From contig JAMJTW010000014.1 in the NCBI GenBank assembly GCA_024281175.1, positions 1 through 64,000 of the forward strand: DNA of 64,000 nucleotides. Direction: 5' to 3'. Shown here piece by piece: positions 8,987-17,551 of this stretch; the first letter of the stretch is position 1; each line of letters begins with the position of its first letter. Below the pieces are notes generated by a model, which saw nothing but the letters and a program-made list of their open reading frames with translations, made no database searches and was not told the origin of the DNA. Made by a program: the position numbers and the translations under genes. Source of the stretch: Candidatus Thiovulum imperiosus. GTDB lineage: Bacteria > Campylobacterota > Campylobacteria > Campylobacterales > Thiovulaceae.

Positions 8987-11900
8987 TTAAAAATATATTC
9001 TTGCATTACTTAAATTCTCTTCTAGTAGAGTCTGATTTGTTTCAGAAACAGAGTTGTTTTGGAGATAGATAAATCTTAAATTCTCCATTCCTAAAAGAGG
9101 TGATATATCTGAAATATTGTTGCTATCAAGATATAGAGTCTCTAAGTTTGTGAGATTTCCAATTTCAGAAATATCTGAAATGGAATTTGAAGAGAGTTTA
9201 AGAGTCTCCAAACTATCAAGATTTGAGAGTTCTAAAGTTACAATTTCATTGTATCGAGCATCTAAACTACTTAAACTTGGTAAGTTGTCAAGAGTTAAAG
9301 TTGTAATTTCGTTTCTTCGAACATTTATAGTTTCAAGATACTCTAAATCTGAGAGAGGAGAAATATCGATAATATCATTTCTATCAAGACCTACAAATTG
9401 TAAATTCTCAAAACCAGAAAGATTAGAGATATCCACTATATCGTTGTAGTTCAAATTCAAAGTCTCCAATTTTAAAAGATTTGAGAAATCTAAAGAGTCT
9501 ATTTGATTGTAATCTAAATTTAGTTCCGTAAGATTTAAATCTGAAAGAGAAGAGACATCTTCGATATTGTTGTAATCAGCGTCTAAAAATGTAAGTTTTG
9601 TTAAATTTGAGAAAGATGATATATCTTCAATACTGTTTTGAGCTATCTCCAGAGTTTGTAGGTTTGTGAGTTCTCCAATTCTACTAACATCGGTAATATC
9701 GAAGTTCTGCTGTAAATCTAACTCTGTAAGATTTGTGAGTATCTCAATTCCAGCAACTCTATCTATCTCCCAATTTCGACAATCTAACTCTGTAATTGTA
9801 TAGTTGTCACCAACACACTCTTCTAAATTGACATCTTCAAACTGTTCATCTTCCTTATAAACTGTATCTCGAATACAGATGCTATATTGGTAGTCATCAT
9901 CTGGACTGCTATTTGTATATCCACCATTTGCTAAGTCGAGACTCCACATACTTGTTGGTGTAAAGTTTGTTGAGTCACTCCAATAGATAGTTGCTATCAC
10001 ATTTTCAAAAACAGAATTTATAAAGCCATCTAAATTTTCAACATCAAAAATAGAGACAAGTTCCTCAATTTCTGGTAGTCTCCAATCATCAAGCCCAGAA
10101 ACATTTTTGTCATCACAAACTGTTTCGGCATCACTCCAAGAAGTTCCTTCACTATACTCATCAAACCACATTAATTCGTGAACCTCATCAACGACAACAC
10201 CTGAACTATTTCTATCTAAATCCAAACTGTTGTAAAGAGTTTCACCAGAGATACAGCGAATATAGTTTTCTGTATCTCTATCTGAAAATTCAATTGCTCC
10301 ATCATAAAAAGAGACTGCATAATATTTATCTTCAAAGCCATTTGCAACTATCTCTTTATCTGTCCAGTAATTTTCAGTTTTAACATACTCAAAAACATCA
10401 GAGATGGCTGGAGATATTTTGTCTCTCTCTGCTAAATACCAAAGCTCTTTAAAGTTTGGAAGTCTCCAACTCTTTCCATACAAATCCAACTCTTCACAAT
10501 AGGCTCTCGCTTCTGAAAGAGTTCCACTCCTATCTCCACTATCTTCCCACAAAATATTTAGAGTCTCATTTTGAACAACTTCTCCCAAATCTGTATAGAC
10601 CATATCTTGGAGAAAATTCCGATAGTCATCACTCGGTTTATTTTCACTATCCTGAACAAAAGAGATATTCAAATCCAAAAAGTCCTCTTTTAAAGTATCA
10701 TTTTTCTCATCAGAGTAATTCTCTACAAAATCCAAATCTGTAAGAGTTTCTAACTCTTCTGCACTCTCAAAATCTTTTGAGTAGATATCTAAAATTTCTG
10801 AATAGTTTTCATCAAAATTTTCAAAATTTGTTGATAAGTCTAAATCTGTTGTCTTTTCTAAATCGTATCTCTTTTCAAAAGTTGTATAGAAAAATAGTTC
10901 TGTTTCATTTTCTAACTCCTCTCTCAATTTGAAATCAGTGGCAAAATCGAAATCTAAAATCTTCTCTAACTCTCCATAAATTTTAAAATCCATATTGAAA
11001 ACTAAATTGTAGAGATGGATATTTTCAGATTTAGTTTTAAAATCAGTGGCAAAATCGAAGTCTAAAATCTTCTCCAACTCACTGTAAGTTTCAAAATCTT
11101 CTAAAAAGATAAGCTCTTTAAATTTCTCCACATCTGAAATTTTCTCAAAATCTATTGCAAAAATCAGAGTCTCCAATTTCTCCAATTCGGAAACTTTTAA
11201 AAAGTCTGCAAAGAGATGTAGAGATTTGAGCTTCTCTGCATCAGATACTTTTTGGAAATCTATGGAAAAGAGAAGAAGTTTCAACTTATCTAAATCTGAA
11301 ACAGCTTCAAAATCAGAACTTAAAACAAGTTCCGAAAGTTTTTCAAGTTCTGACACATTTTCAAAATTTATCATAAATTGGAGTATCTTATACTTCTCCA
11401 AATCTGAAACAGTTTCGAAGTCTGCAAGTGTAGAGAGAGTCCCATATTTAGAAAAACTAGAGATATCTGGAAAGTCTTCTGAAAAGATGATATTTTTCAA
11501 ATTTATAACATCATAAACTTTCTCAAAATCGATATTAAAAAGTATAAATTTTAGATTTTCCAAATCTGAAATAGCTTTAAAATCTTCAGTAAATTGGAAA
11601 TCGAGAAGTTTTGCCAAATCGGAAACTCCTTTCTGAAAATCCTCTTCTAAAAATAGCTCTTTTAAACTTTCCATCTCTTTTACAATTTCAAAATTCAGAG
11701 AGCTGATGAGGTTCAGCAGGTTTTCCACATCTTCCACTATTTCAAAATCCATACCCATTGGAACTTGATTTAAAACAGTTTCAAAATTTTCTGAAAAGAG
11801 TAAAGAGTAAAATTTTCCTAAATCTGATGATGGGTTCTGAAAATCTGTTTCAAAAAGTAGATTTTTAAAATTGGAAATTTCAGAAACAGTTTCAAAATTC

Positions 11901-14842
11901 TTAGAGTAGAAAATCTCAATATTTCTATATATCTCATCAGAAACCTCATCAAAATCTGCAAAGAAAATAAGTTCGATTTTCTCTTTTAAATCTGGAAGCA
12001 GTTCAAAATCGGAAGCTAAAACTAAACTTTTAAGTTTTTGTAGTTCTGAAACAGTTTCATAAGTTTGTATAAATAGAAGTTTTAAATTCTCCAAATCTTC
12101 AGGATTCTCAAAATCTTTTGCAGTTTCAAAACTCCATAAAATAGTCTCTTTTACACTAGCAAAATCTATTTCAAAAAAGAGAATCTGGAGCTTTTCTAAA
12201 TTTTCAGGTTTCTCAAAATCTAAACTTAAAATCATACTTCGAAATTTTTCTAACTCTAAAACTGCTTCAAAGCTCATTCCTAAATTTTTCACATTTTCAA
12301 AATCCAATTGGAAATCTAAAGTTTTATAAAGAAGCAGATTTGAAACTTTTGAAAAATCTGTTGAAAAGAGAATCTCGGAAAATTTCTCCAAATTTTGAAC
12401 AGATTCAAAATCGGAATCTAAAACTAAATTCCCAAGTTTTTGTAGTTCCGAAACAGTTTGGAAATCTAACATCAAATTTACAAAATCTGAAGAGAAGTTC
12501 ATACTACTAAAAAGTTTCTGAAACTTTTCGAGATTCTCTGGATTTCGAAAATCCACACTAGACAAAATATCTAAAAGATTGGAAATTTCTGTCTGGTTTT
12601 GAAAATCCATATTTCCAAGAATGTCTTGAAACTTTTCCAAATCTTCTGGATTTTGAAAGTTTGCATTTTGCAAAATATCTGGAAGTTTTGAAAGCTCTTC
12701 TGGATTCTGAAAATCTATACTTCCAAGAATCTCTCGAAACTTTTCCAAATCTTCTGGATTCTCAAAATCTAAAATTGCATTTGAGATTGTTGGAAAGTCT
12801 ATGGAAAAGAGCAGTTCTCGAATCTTTTCCAGTTTTTGAACTTCTGCAAAATCTTCAGTTTTGAAGATGAGGTTTGAGAGATGTGCTAAGTCTTCTGGAT
12901 TTTGGAAACTTGTACTATCTAAAATATCTTCCAATTTTTCAATATTTTCAGGAATTTCCAAATCGGAATCAAAGAGTAAATTTTTAAAAACTTCTAAATC
13001 TTCAGGTTTCTCAAAATTTGCACTACCCAAAATTTCAAGCAGTCTCTGAAGTTCCGCAAATCTACTAAAGTCTGCAACAGAAATAAGCTCTTTCAACTTC
13101 TCAAGTTCTGCAACTTTTTCAAAATCTTCCATCACATTCTGTTCAAAGTCTGCCGTATTTAAGAAATCTCTCATCTTTTCTAAAAGTTCTGAAAGTGAGT
13201 CGAAATCATCTCCCAAATTTATATCTGGATAGTTGTCTAAATCTTCAGAAACCTCTTCTGGATTTCCATCGTTTGGTGGAGTTACAGTTAGTGGAGCTAC
13301 TGTCTCCGAAGGTAGAGCAAATTCCATTCCCATATAACTCATTATCTTATCATAGATATCTTCAGGAATACACTCATCTCCCTTAAATGGAATTTTGTAG
13401 CAAATTTCTGAGCCACCTCCTGTACTATCTCCTCTGTTATCTCCAGACTCTATTTTAGTACATCTATTTTTAAATGCCATCTCATTTTCAAGTAGAGCCT
13501 CACACTTTAAAACTTCACCTGAACTCTTCTCTTTTCTCTCAAAAAAATATATCCTTGTAACAATAAGAACAGCATATCTCTTTTTTGCTCTCCACTTTGC
13601 CAACATCTCCAGAAACCATCTAGCATTATATTTGTAATACTTATCCACAATCTTAGCTTCAGCTTTCTCTGGTACTTCACCGCTAATTAGAGTTTCTTTA
13701 ATTGTTCCATTCTTATCAATCTCTTCACTAATAGTATCTATAATAATTTCAAATATATCTTCAACAACGGTACTATTTATTTCATAACTACTATTTATAT
13801 CCATTAAAATTTCTGGAAATTTAGCAACTGCCCACTGGTCTCTTGTCGAATTACTCTCATTATCTTCAATGAAGTTTTCATCAAAGTACTTTTCTGGAAT
13901 ATTTGGTATAGATTTTATACCTCTTTTTTGAAAAGAGTTTAGTAGAGTTGATAGCGGTGTAATAAGCATCTCTCTAAGTTTTAACTCTTCTGGAGATACA
14001 TTTAAATCATAAATTTCTACCGTTTTAACACCTGTAAAAATCTCTATTTTTCTCTTTCCAATTAGTGAAATATTTCTCTCATCTGTAAGATTTCCATCTA
14101 CAAAAATTGAGATATTTCCCTCTTTTGAGAAATTATAATCTCCAAGAAGAATACTATTTTCACCTTCAACTATCTCTTCCAGAGAGAAAGTTTTAGAGTC
14201 AAAAAGTAGAACTTCTCTAAAATTTGCAAGAGTAAGTCTTCTCTGAAGTAGACCATAAAATTTCTCATCTGTTGCGGTATTTACACCACCAGAAACTTTA
14301 ACTAAAAACTCTTTATCATCACTCTTTTCAAAAAAGAGATAGAAAACTCCATTCTCATCTGTTTTCTCAAATTGATACTCTTTTCCCTCTAAAGTTGGTG
14401 TTCCACCTTTGATATAACCATCAAGAGCAACTCCTTTAAATGCTAAATATTTATAAATGTTTCTTATGGTAGTGCTATTCTCTTCAGGATAGAGTAAGTT
14501 GTCAGAAAACTCTAAATCTACACTCTTTTCAGGAATTTCAAAAGTTGGAAAGTTCATATTTTCAAGATAGAGGACCTCATCACCATTTGGAATTTTAGGT
14601 GGTACTCCACTTGGAATAGTTCTATTTCCGTTAGGTAGTGGTTTTGGTAGAGTCACATTCTCTTCTGAAAAATTGTTTGCTGAAATCTCTTCTTTCAGAA
14701 GCTCTTCTGAAATATTCTCTTTTGAAATATTCTCTTCTGAAGCATTCTCTTCCAGTAGTATAGTTTTAGAACTTTTCTTGTCATCAGAAAACCACGAACA
14801 GCCTGAAAATAGCAGTAGAAATAGGGGAATTAGCACTTTCAT
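8987..14842 (-). CDS. giant lipoprotein: 18-aa repeats, two DUF1566 domains, leucine-rich repeats
   Basis: 1951 aa from the chosen ATG, which gives MKVLIPLFLLLFSGC, a clean lipoprotein signal, and has AAGG upstream; an in-frame start 51 bases earlier would bury the signal. Order: lipobox and an acidic Asn-rich stretch; a beta-rich region to about residue 560; then about 45 degenerate 18-residue repeats (13160-10720) of the pattern DFxxVSELEKLKxLLFSI; two DUF1566 (Lcl C-terminal) domains with the WRLPN and YWSDS signatures (about 10560-10250 and 10160-9870); and at the C-terminus about a dozen 20-22 residue leucine-rich repeats of SDS22/internalin type (from about 9780). Presumably an anchored surface or periplasmic binding protein; ligand unknown. 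It lies 57 bases downstream of a secreted protein gene. Confidence 0.85.
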   Translation of the reverse strand: MKVLIPLFLLLFSGCSWFSDDKKSSKTILLEENASEENISKENISEELLKEEISANNFSEENVTLPKPLPNGNRTIPSGVPPKIPNGDEVLYLENMNFPTFEIPEKSVDLEFSDNLLYPEENSTTIRNIYKYLAFKGVALDGYIKGGTPTLEGKEYQFEKTDENGVFYLFFEKSDDKEFLVKVSGGVNTATDEKFYGLLQRRLTLANFREVLLFDSKTFSLEEIVEGENSILLGDYNFSKEGNISIFVDGNLTDERNISLIGKRKIEIFTGVKTVEIYDLNVSPEELKLREMLITPLSTLLNSFQKRGIKSIPNIPEKYFDENFIEDNESNSTRDQWAVAKFPEILMDINSSYEINSTVVEDIFEIIIDTISEEIDKNGTIKETLISGEVPEKAEAKIVDKYYKYNARWFLEMLAKWRAKKRYAVLIVTRIYFFERKEKSSGEVLKCEALLENEMAFKNRCTKIESGDNRGDSTGGGSEICYKIPFKGDECIPEDIYDKIMSYMGMEFALPSETVAPLTVTPPNDGNPEEVSEDLDNYPDINLGDDFDSLSELLEKMRDFLNTADFEQNVMEDFEKVAELEKLKELISVADFSRFAELQRLLEILGSANFEKPEDLEVFKNLLFDSDLEIPENIEKLEDILDSTSFQNPEDLAHLSNLIFKTEDFAEVQKLEKIRELLFSIDFPTISNAILDFENPEDLEKFREILGSIDFQNPEELSKLPDILQNANFQNPEDLEKFQDILGNMDFQNQTEISNLLDILSSVDFRNPENLEKFQKLFSSMNFSSDFVNLMLDFQTVSELQKLGNLVLDSDFESVQNLEKFSEILFSTDFSKVSNLLLYKTLDFQLDFENVKNLGMSFEAVLELEKFRSMILSLDFEKPENLEKLQILFFEIDFASVKETILWSFETAKDFENPEDLENLKLLFIQTYETVSELQKLKSLVLASDFELLPDLKEKIELIFFADFDEVSDEIYRNIEIFYSKNFETVSEISNFKNLLFETDFQNPSSDLGKFYSLLFSENFETVLNQVPMGMDFEIVEDVENLLNLISSLNFEIVKEMESLKELFLEEDFQKGVSDLAKLLDFQFTEDFKAISDLENLKFILFNIDFEKVYDVINLKNIIFSEDFPDISSFSKYGTLSTLADFETVSDLEKYKILQFMINFENVSELEKLSELVLSSDFEAVSDLDKLKLLLFSIDFQKVSDAEKLKSLHLFADFLKVSELEKLETLIFAIDFEKISDVEKFKELIFLEDFETYSELEKILDFDFATDFKTKSENIHLYNLVFNMDFKIYGELEKILDFDFATDFKLREELENETELFFYTTFEKRYDLEKTTDLDLSTNFENFDENYSEILDIYSKDFESAEELETLTDLDFVENYSDEKNDTLKEDFLDLNISFVQDSENKPSDDYRNFLQDMVYTDLGEVVQNETLNILWEDSGDRSGTLSEARAYCEELDLYGKSWRLPNFKELWYLAERDKISPAISDVFEYVKTENYWTDKEIVANGFEDKYYAVSFYDGAIEFSDRDTENYIRCISGETLYNSLDLDRNSSGVVVDEVHELMWFDEYSEGTSWSDAETVCDDKNVSGLDDWRLPEIEELVSIFDVENLDGFINSVFENVIATIYWSDSTNFTPTSMWSLDLANGGYTNSSPDDDYQYSICIRDTVYKEDEQFEDVNLEECVGDNYTITELDCRNWEIDRVAGIEILTNLTELDLQQNFDITDVSRIGELTNLQTLEIAQNSIEDISSFSNLTKLTFLDADYNNIEDVSSLSDLNLTELNLDYNQIDSLDFSNLLKLETLNLNYNDIVDISNLSGFENLQFVGLDRNDIIDISPLSDLEYLETINVRRNEITTLTLDNLPSLSSLDARYNEIVTLELSNLDSLETLKLSSNSISDISEIGNLTNLETLYLDSNNISDISPLLGMENLRFIYLQNNSVSETNQTLLEENLSNARIYF

Positions 14843-14898
14843 AAAAAACCTTTTCAAGGGAAAAATTGGAAAGAGAGTGGTAGTCACTCTCAAAAGAA

Positions 14899-15924: not shown

Positions 15925-16257
15925 CTAAAACATCTTGCATAAATTCTTGCGAATTTCAGAATACTCATCTTCACCCAGTTTTGCCAATTTTTCACCAACT
16001 CTCTTTTTAGAAATAGTTCGAATTTGATTTAAAAGTAGATCGCTATCTTTTTCTAAACTCTCTCTTTTTGAAACTCTAAATCGAAAAGGAAGCATATTGT
16101 CAATTAGTTGAGTTGAGAGTGGAGCAACAACGATTGTATCAAGAATAGAGTTTTCATCATCGTGAGAAAGAATAACAGCTGGTCTGATTTTTCCAACTTC
16201 ATGACCTTTTGTAGGATTGAAATTAATTGTTACAATATCGCCTCTACTATATTCCAT
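15925..16257 (-). CDS. MazF/PemK-type toxin
   Basis: About 111 aa. Starts with YSRGDIVTINFNPT and continues GKIRPAVILSHDD, the MazF/PemK fold signature; this family cleaves single-stranded mRNA at short sequences. Key Arg in RPAV and a polar C-terminal half with QIRTISKKRVGE are present. Two adjacent ATGs (16260 and 16257) follow GGAG; the second has the better spacing. Upstream in-frame ATG at 16275 would overlap the antitoxin further. It overlaps the preceding 81-aa gene, the standard antitoxin-first layout. It probably acts in the cytoplasm as the toxin of a type II module. Confidence 0.88.
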   Translation of the reverse strand: MEYSRGDIVTINFNPTKGHEVGKIRPAVILSHDDENSILDTIVVAPLSTQLIDNMLPFRFRVSKRESLEKDSDLLLNQIRTISKKRVGEKLAKLGEDEYSEIRKNLCKMF

Positions 16258-16492
16258 CATCGACTCCAATTTCACAAAACTCTAAATCTTGATGTTTTTT
16301 CAAAATGTGTAATTTTCTGATTTTTTCTTCTCTCTCAATTTTTTCAATTAACTCTTTTACATATTTCTCATATTTTGAAGAGATGTAATAACCGAGAGTT
16401 CGCTTCTCTCTTTTATCGACAATTTCAGAGAAGAGGAGTGTTTTAAAAAGTGCTGGTTTGCTTTGAAGAGCAGTAATTCCTATTGAGTCCAT
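16247..16492 (-). CDS. putative antitoxin of the MazF-like module
   Basis: 81 aa, charged and helical, overlapping the start of the toxin gene. I do not recognise its DNA-binding family: it lacks an obvious MazE AbrB strand or ribbon-helix-helix motif. Its role is inferred from position, size and overlap. The N-terminal part (GITALQSKPALFKTLLFSE) resembles a short regulatory helix pair; the remainder is a Lys/Glu-rich helix. The stop lies inside the toxin gene, so translation is coupled. Confidence 0.65.
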   Translation of the reverse strand: MDSIGITALQSKPALFKTLLFSEIVDKREKRTLGYYISSKYEKYVKELIEKIEREEKIRKLHILKKHQDLEFCEIGVDDGI

Positions 16493-16604
16493 ATATATCT
16501 TTCACATAAATTATCTATGTGGATTATATCTTTTTAAAGTTTGATTTTAAAACTCTAAAATTACAGACTCTTCGGTCAGTTTTGGTTTTATGAGTAAATT
16601 TTTC

Positions 16605-16701
16605 GGGAGTGACCAAATAGGCTTCTGCCTCTCTCACCCGAAAGGGTTCGAAATGACATATAAGTTGTTAAAGCGTAAAAATACTCTATTTGGTCAGTCC
16701 C
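16605..16701. mobile_element. MITE-like element C (family 1, internally deleted, 97 bp)
   Basis: Terminal repeats GGGAGTGACCAAATAG and CTATTTGGTCAGTCCC. Flanked by AATTTTTC on both sides (16597-16604 and 16702-16709), an 8-bp target duplication. The interior is a shortened form of the 26264-26437 element: it keeps GCTTCTGCCTCT, the CTCACCCGAAAGGGTTCG hairpin and GAAATGACATAT, and has lost the middle. A partial repeat AGACTCTTCGGTCAGTT, also found in element A, lies just to its left (16565-16581). Confidence 0.85.
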
Positions 16702-16762
16702 AATTTTTCTGCAAAATTTACTTTATATATAATTCTAAAAAATATTTTATAAAGAGAATATA

Positions 16763-17551
16763 TTGTTAAGCGATGTTCGTAAATCAAATTGGTTTTCAAA
16801 TCTTACTACTTCAGTAATTATAGGTTATGCTGTTGTGCTTGGTTTTAAAACTTCGCATCAGATAGAAGTTGCATTTGAACACTGGTGGTTCTACTTAGAT
16901 TTAGTAATTACACTCTATTTTTTAATAGAGATAGTGATAAAAATTTCTGCTGACAAAAAAGAGTTTTTTAAAAGTGGTTGGAATATTTTCGATTTTCTAA
17001 TTGTAGCTGTTACTCTAATTCCAATAGAAGAGAGTGAATTTATGATGATAGCTAGACTCTTGAGACTTTTCAGAGTTTTAAGACTTTTCAACTCTCGTCC
17101 TGAACTGAAAAATATTATAGATATGTTAATTGGAGCTATTCCATCAATTATAGATATTGTAATTTTGATGTTTATCATTTTCTATGTTTATGGTGTAATT
17201 GGAAGTTTCCTATTCTCATCACTACCATCTGGTCTCTGGAGTGATTTGCTAACATCTATGCTAACTCTATTTAGGGTTCTAACTTTTGAAGATTGGACAG
17301 ATGTTATGTATGAAGCGATGGAGCTAAATTCTCTATATTGGATATATTTTGTCTCATTCATCATAATTACAGCTTTTGTATTCTTCAACCTATTTATCGC
17401 AGTAATAATTGGTGAAATGGAGGCTTTAAGAGAGCAGGGCAAAGGTAGTATGAAAACAACAATTGATGAAGACCACAAAATTTTAGAAAGCGTCCAGAAA
17501 GAGTTGGCTGAAGTGAAAGCTCTTTTACAAGAATTAAAACAGAAAGAGTAG
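16763..17551 (+). CDS. one-domain voltage-gated cation channel with calcium-type filter
   Basis: 262 aa, six membrane segments as in NaChBac/NavAb-type homotetramers. S4 carries arginines at every third position (R98, R101, R104, R107). The pore loop reads RVLTFEDWTD, with the filter at residues 174-180. NavAb has TLESWSM at this place and the engineered calcium-selective CavAb has TLDDWSD; this protein naturally has acidic residues at all three equivalent positions. A C-terminal coiled coil (about 238-260) follows S6, as expected for tetramer assembly. The start is TTG at 16763 with AAAGAGA upstream. It stands alone between a MITE and tatD. Ion selectivity is inferred from the filter only. 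Confidence 0.9.
   Translation: MLSDVRKSNWFSNLTTSVIIGYAVVLGFKTSHQIEVAFEHWWFYLDLVITLYFLIEIVIKISADKKEFFKSGWNIFDFLIVAVTLIPIEESEFMMIARLLRLFRVLRLFNSRPELKNIIDMLIGAIPSIIDIVILMFIIFYVYGVIGSFLFSSLPSGLWSDLLTSMLTLFRVLTFEDWTDVMYEAMELNSLYWIYFVSFIIITAFVFFNLFIAVIIGEMEALREQGKGSMKTTIDEDHKILESVQKELAEVKALLQELKQKE

Follow-up and report, generated by a model that had tools for sequence, protein, structure and literature searches.

To our knowledge, CavMr from Meiothermus ruber is the only natural prokaryotic calcium channel demonstrated so far. CavMr and the sodium channel NavPp from Plesiocystis pacifica are members of the ancestor-like BacNavs (AnclNavs), which were described by Shimomura et al. in 2020 and are widespread in bacteria and archaea (PMC7041947). 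NavPp carries the filter TLEDWTD; as noted in PMC7041947, this is the sequence that Liebeskind et al. 2013 predicted for the BacNav ancestor. NavPp is sodium-selective, with a PCa/PNa of 0.308, and is blocked by calcium (PMC7041947). NavPp given TLEDWSD or TLEDWAD, the filters of engineered calcium-selective mutants, is still not calcium-permeable, and the D4G exchange leads to a gain of calcium selectivity (PMC7041947). CavMr has the filter TLEGWVD and a PCa/PNa of 218, which drops to 7.7 when Gly4 is replaced by Asp; its calcium selectivity is due mainly to Gly4 (PMC7041947). With the NavPp filter, CavMr shows a PCa/PNa of 13.8 and only weakly distinguishes Na, K and Cs. In NavPp, single swaps likewise abolish monovalent selectivity, while the wild type keeps Na over K and Cs (PMC7041947). 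The T220A exchange slows the inactivation of NaChBac (PMC7041947). An Asp at filter position 4 raises the calcium permeability of NavAb or NaChBac (PMC10120453, PMC7764494). In Spafford's "beacon" scheme, channels with this residue are classed as calcium-selective or calcium-blocked; the same source describes an extended disulfide loop before S6 in CavMr (PMC10120453). Phe at filter position 2 has been reported in some BacNavs and AnclNavs, and L176F in NavAb does not produce calcium block (PMC10349818).

The channel gene studied here lies at positions 16763–17551 (forward strand, stop codon included) of the analysed DNA stretch of 64,000 nucleotides, referred to as the window. It starts with TTG and encodes 262 amino acids. 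The motif AAAGAGA (16751–16757, forward strand), located 5 nt upstream of the TTG, may serve as the ribosome-binding site. The Pfam family PF00520 (Ion_trans) covers residues 9–225 with E=1.1e-44 and a score of 152.8 bits against a curated cut-off of 25, a match far beyond chance. A specific NCBIfam model for the protein was not found. The AlphaFold2 model, computed from a 62-row alignment from which four plasmid-record rows were left out, has a mean pLDDT of 90.5. It shows the expected helices S1–S6, the P1 helix, the filter, the P2 helix and a long C-terminal helix. CavAb, NavMs, NavAb and NaChBac are its best matches among solved structures. Judged from its sequence, the gene is intact and encodes a bacterial one-domain six-helix voltage-gated cation channel. 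The description as a bacterial one-domain channel, given before in a sequence-only reading of the window, is thus borne out by the family match and the confident fold.

The sequences of NavAb and NaChBac used for comparison were checked against PDB chains. The NavAb sequence is identical to its PDB chain over the full length. For NaChBac, the C-terminal tail and one residue in the final part of the compared sequence do not match, and the comparison was limited to the portion up to "NEEDGE". All features of the channel are on the forward strand. S1–S3 of the voltage-sensing domain (16787–17017; model helices 9–29, 39–70 and 72–85) contain the occluding residue F53 and the counter-charges E56 and D77, which align with F56, E59 and D80 of NavAb. 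The S4 helix (17042–17095, residues 94–111) reads MMIARLLRLFRVLRLF and contains the arginines R98, R101, R104 and R107. The four arginines align one-to-one with R99, R102, R105 and R108 of NavAb, which confirms the regular S4 spacing noted earlier. In the model, the S4–S5 linker and S5 form a single continuous helix (17099–17212, residues 113–150), which is followed by the P1 pore helix (17246–17281, residues 162–173). The P2 helix (17294–17320, residues 178–186) was delimited from the model and a spacing count. The pore-lining S6 helix (17330–17437) contains A204 at the position of NaChBac T220, and N209, the conserved S6 Asn. The C-terminal helix (17438–17548) is continuous to residue 261 in the model and is probably a tetramerising coiled coil, by analogy with BacNavs. 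The protein contains no cysteines.

The bases 17282–17302 of the forward strand, within the 262-aa ORF, translate to the selectivity filter TFEDWTD (T174, F175, E176, D177, W178, T179 and D180) with the acidic residues E176, D177 and D180, in agreement with the sequence-only reading. That reading had also placed acidic residues at all three sites where NavAb was changed to give CavAb. This is correct for positions 3 and 4 of the filter. For position 7 it is less certain, given the spacing of the pore: filter Trp and S6 Asn are 31 residues apart in the window channel, against 32 in NavAb and NaChBac, and a superposition of D180 on D181 of CavAb therefore cannot be assumed. The stretch between the filter and S6, including P2, lacks one residue relative to NavAb and NaChBac. 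A spacing of 31 was found in all 67 channels with a TLE[DG] filter and in 23 of the 24 with TFEDWTD, and a spacing of 32 in 17 of 18 canonical rows, NavAb and NaChBac among them; the two exceptions look like failures of pattern reading. Position 4 is occupied by Asp177 and not by the glycine characteristic of CavMr.

Of two phylogenetic trees, one was computed after masking the seven filter residues, which removes the influence of the filter on the grouping. In both, a single branch separates the acidic-filter proteins from the canonical proteins (NavAb-like proteins and NaChBac), with support of 100/98 unmasked and 99/94 masked. The trees are unrooted, and NaChBac, the sole row of the Bacillus group, sits on a long branch. 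The spacing between Trp and the S6 Asn, an independent character, agrees with this split. On the acidic side, the window channel falls into a clade of proteins from Campylobacterota and some Gammaproteobacteria, for example Pseudoalteromonas (100/99), which is set apart from the broad TLEDWTD group as a sub-branch of its own. A single clade uniting these proteins with the NavAb-like proteins of Campylobacterota was rejected (AU p=8e-5). As in AnclNavs, the channel branches apart from the NavAb-like and Bacillus groups and has a filter more acidic than TLESW; the TLESW filter and the placement in the NavAb clade that mark canonical BacNavs were not found. The lineage thus appears to resemble the AnclNavs, as judged from trees that do not include NavPp and CavMr themselves. 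Because of the separate lineage and the shorter P2, NavAb and CavAb are poor templates for the window channel.

A related channel is present in 73 of 397 genomes of Campylobacterota. The members of the close class share about 57–78% identity with the window channel, and TFEDWTD was found in all 26 loci read, window included. The remaining 25 include a second channel gene in the same 2.2 Mb genome, whose product is 60% identical and has the filter TFEDWTD as well. This second copy (L002, G000:C24:3676-4452) lies about 4 kb away from a chemoreceptor gene. The distant class shares about 29–36% identity, and its filter, where read, is TLESWSM, as in NavAb. Seven genomes (G226, G259, G273, G321, G376, G394 and G413) contain one member of each class. 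When 84,980 species genomes were scanned, 564 relatives matching TLE[GD]W[TV]D[VIL][MA] were obtained; the query was a search pattern including edited and invented fragments and served only to find loci. Among the best 80 of the 564, the filter is TLEDWTD in 79 and TLEGWVD in one. These 80 belong to Pseudomonadota, Nitrospirota, Acidobacteriota, Nitrospinota and Chloroflexota, and none carries a Deinococcota or Myxococcota label. No relatives were found in viral contigs searched with the single window protein, and the phage records gave one weak, distant match.

Acidic filters such as TFEDWTD and TLEDWTD are thus widespread and not rare. The comparison with the filters of homologues, proposed earlier as a check, gave the same motif in 25 of 25 close homologues and a sister motif in 564 relatives. 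The statement that natural prokaryotic calcium channels are few is sound, CavMr being the only one demonstrated. The conclusion that the window protein is a good candidate does not follow from it, since acidic filters are common and the motif does not single out this channel. The window channel is an ordinary member of a known lineage of acidic-filter bacterial channels.

Three of the homologous loci deserve separate mention. The betaproteobacterial homologue L127 has the filter TLEGWVD, the same as CavMr, which makes it a stronger natural calcium-channel candidate than the window protein. On each of the gammaproteobacterial contigs L055 and L056, a channel gene with the acidic filter TFEDWTD and another with TLEDWTD are separated by about 3 kb; in L055 the two are on different branches of the tree. 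An unannotated homologue on a Vibrio alfacsensis plasmid (L048) is interrupted by a stop codon in frame and by a frameshift, and the filter region still reads TFEDWTD.

The genes around the channel give no local support to the link with motility or chemotaxis that had been mentioned earlier as speculative. A PemK/MazF-like toxin gene and a small upstream ORF flank the channel on the opposite strand, and genes for TatD, an SLT/LysM transglycosylase, an RlpA-like DPBB protein and HisB lie downstream. These neighbours are unrelated to motility, and none of the flanking genes was found again next to the second copy or next to the homologous channel at eleven other loci. A motility link based on local gene order was therefore rejected. 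The genome as a whole contains flagellin genes and 12 chemoreceptor matches, and with these a role of the channel in motility is possible. Other features of the region were also recorded. The toxin gene and the upstream ORF overlap (15925–16492, reverse strand); the ORF encodes 81 amino acids without a Pfam match and could be the antitoxin. A MITE-like intergenic element with 16-nt inverted arms (16605–16620 and 16686–16701) occupies positions 16600–16705 between this pair and the channel gene. About 40 copies occur in the genome, with 88–99% identity across the right part. Many of them hold about 65 additional internal bases, so the element at 16600–16705 looks internally deleted. Further away, at 8987–14893 on the reverse strand, a 1968-aa protein is encoded, with a lipoprotein-like start, many imperfect "DFExxxELEKL"-type repeats, two Lcl_C domains and leucine-rich repeats at the C-terminus.

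We propose, with a probability of roughly 60%, that the window channel functions like NavPp, as a voltage-gated channel for mainly sodium, with some permeation of calcium, which also blocks it. Four subunits would form a homotetramer. Upon depolarisation, the S4 arginines R98–R107 would move past the charge-transfer centre of F53, E56 and D77, and the S6 gate would open. The filter would be lined by E176, D177 and D180 of each of the four subunits, so that the tetramer has 12 formal negative charges, the same number as NavPp and CavAb. With NavPp as a guide, sodium would be the main ion and calcium modestly permeant, and millimolar calcium would block or slow the current. Slow inactivation is predicted because A204 sits at the position of NaChBac T220, where T220A has a slowing effect. 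The naming of the filter as a native calcium type was based on the analogy with CavAb and appears weak, since NavPp with TLEDWTD is sodium-selective and calcium-blocked and stayed calcium-impermeable with TLEDWSD or TLEDWAD (PMC7041947). The closest experimental precedent thus does not favour this naming: a nearly identical filter prefers sodium, which leaves the calcium-channel label unproven. To judge from NavPp and CavMr, calcium selectivity within the acidic-filter group cannot be predicted from an Asp at position 4. No electrophysiology on the TFEDWTD clade was found in the literature.

It is somewhat unlikely that the channel is truly calcium-selective and represents a second natural prokaryotic calcium channel, working through EDW and D180 on a pore scaffold of its own. 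The 12 filter carboxylates, equal in number to those of CavAb, are consistent with this, and so is the Cav-like EDWTDVMY stretch; the top phmmer matches are eukaryotic T-type Cav chains, a ranking that comes in part from the summing of four repeats. Mutants of NavAb and NaChBac with Asp at position 4 shift towards calcium (PMC10120453, PMC7764494), although the NavAb scaffold is more distant from the window channel, and CavMr carrying TLEDWTD retains a PCa/PNa of 13.8 (PMC7041947). Such scaffold effects are large, which is why calcium selectivity keeps some weight. However, NavPp with TLEDWTD has a PCa/PNa of 0.31, and both the key Gly4 of CavMr and its disulfide loop are missing from the cysteine-free window channel. 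It is unlikely that the whole TFEDWTD clade, from Campylobacterota and some Gammaproteobacteria, forms a natural calcium-selective family of its own that works without Gly4, standing beside a NavAb-type sodium channel in some genomes; if it were, one cell would have separate voltage-gated entry routes for sodium and calcium. We regard as very unlikely a weakly selective channel for sodium, potassium and calcium. CavMr with the NavPp filter barely separates Na, K and Cs, and single swaps in NavPp abolish monovalent selectivity (PMC7041947), but wild-type NavPp with its near-identical filter prefers Na over K and Cs, and the strict conservation of TFEDWTD in the clade suggests a tuned function. 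A canonical sodium channel of the NavAb type in Campylobacterota that acquired acidic residues would fit the phylum and fold of NavAb, but this descent was rejected and can practically be dismissed, given the AU test, the identity of only ~30% to NavAb-like proteins, the presence of both types together in several genomes and the different P2 length.

If the channel is NavPp-like, as we favour, it would strengthen the case that calcium selectivity is not determined by acidic charge alone. If it is calcium-selective, it would be the second natural prokaryotic Cav, with a mechanism unlike that of CavMr and in the phylum of NavAb. The Campylobacterota genomes with TFEDWTD and NavAb-type channels offer a natural side-by-side test.

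Among the known systems, the repeats of the eukaryotic channels Cav1 and Cav3 resemble the window channel in the filter and the start of P2: EDWTDVMY can be compared with TLEGWVDIMY in Cav3 DI, TMEGWTDVLY in Cav1.1 DI and TQEDWNVVLY in T-type DII. They differ in having four unlike repeats per chain, only one of which has Asp at position 4. NaChBac from Bacillus halodurans shares the fold and the four S4 arginines, whereas its filter is TLESWAS, its T220 corresponds to A204, and one more residue separates its filter Trp from its S6 Asn. NavAb from Aliarcobacter butzleri has the same fold, voltage-sensor residues and phylum, but shows only ~30% identity, belongs to a separate clade and has a P2 longer by one residue. 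The engineered CavAb has the same Asp at position 4, with Asp instead of Glu at position 3. CavMr, like the window channel a one-domain prokaryotic protein, shares T1, E3, W5 and D7 of the filter; it differs by Gly4 in place of Asp and by the disulfide loop before S6, which the window channel lacks because it has no cysteines. NavPp, also one-domain and prokaryotic, comes from another phylum, has Leu at filter position 2 where the window channel has F175, and carries T232 where A204 is found, an equivalence that would follow from the shared NaChBac T220 position. Compared by the filter and not by full alignment, TLEDWTD of NavPp and TFEDWTD of the window channel are identical at six of seven residues.
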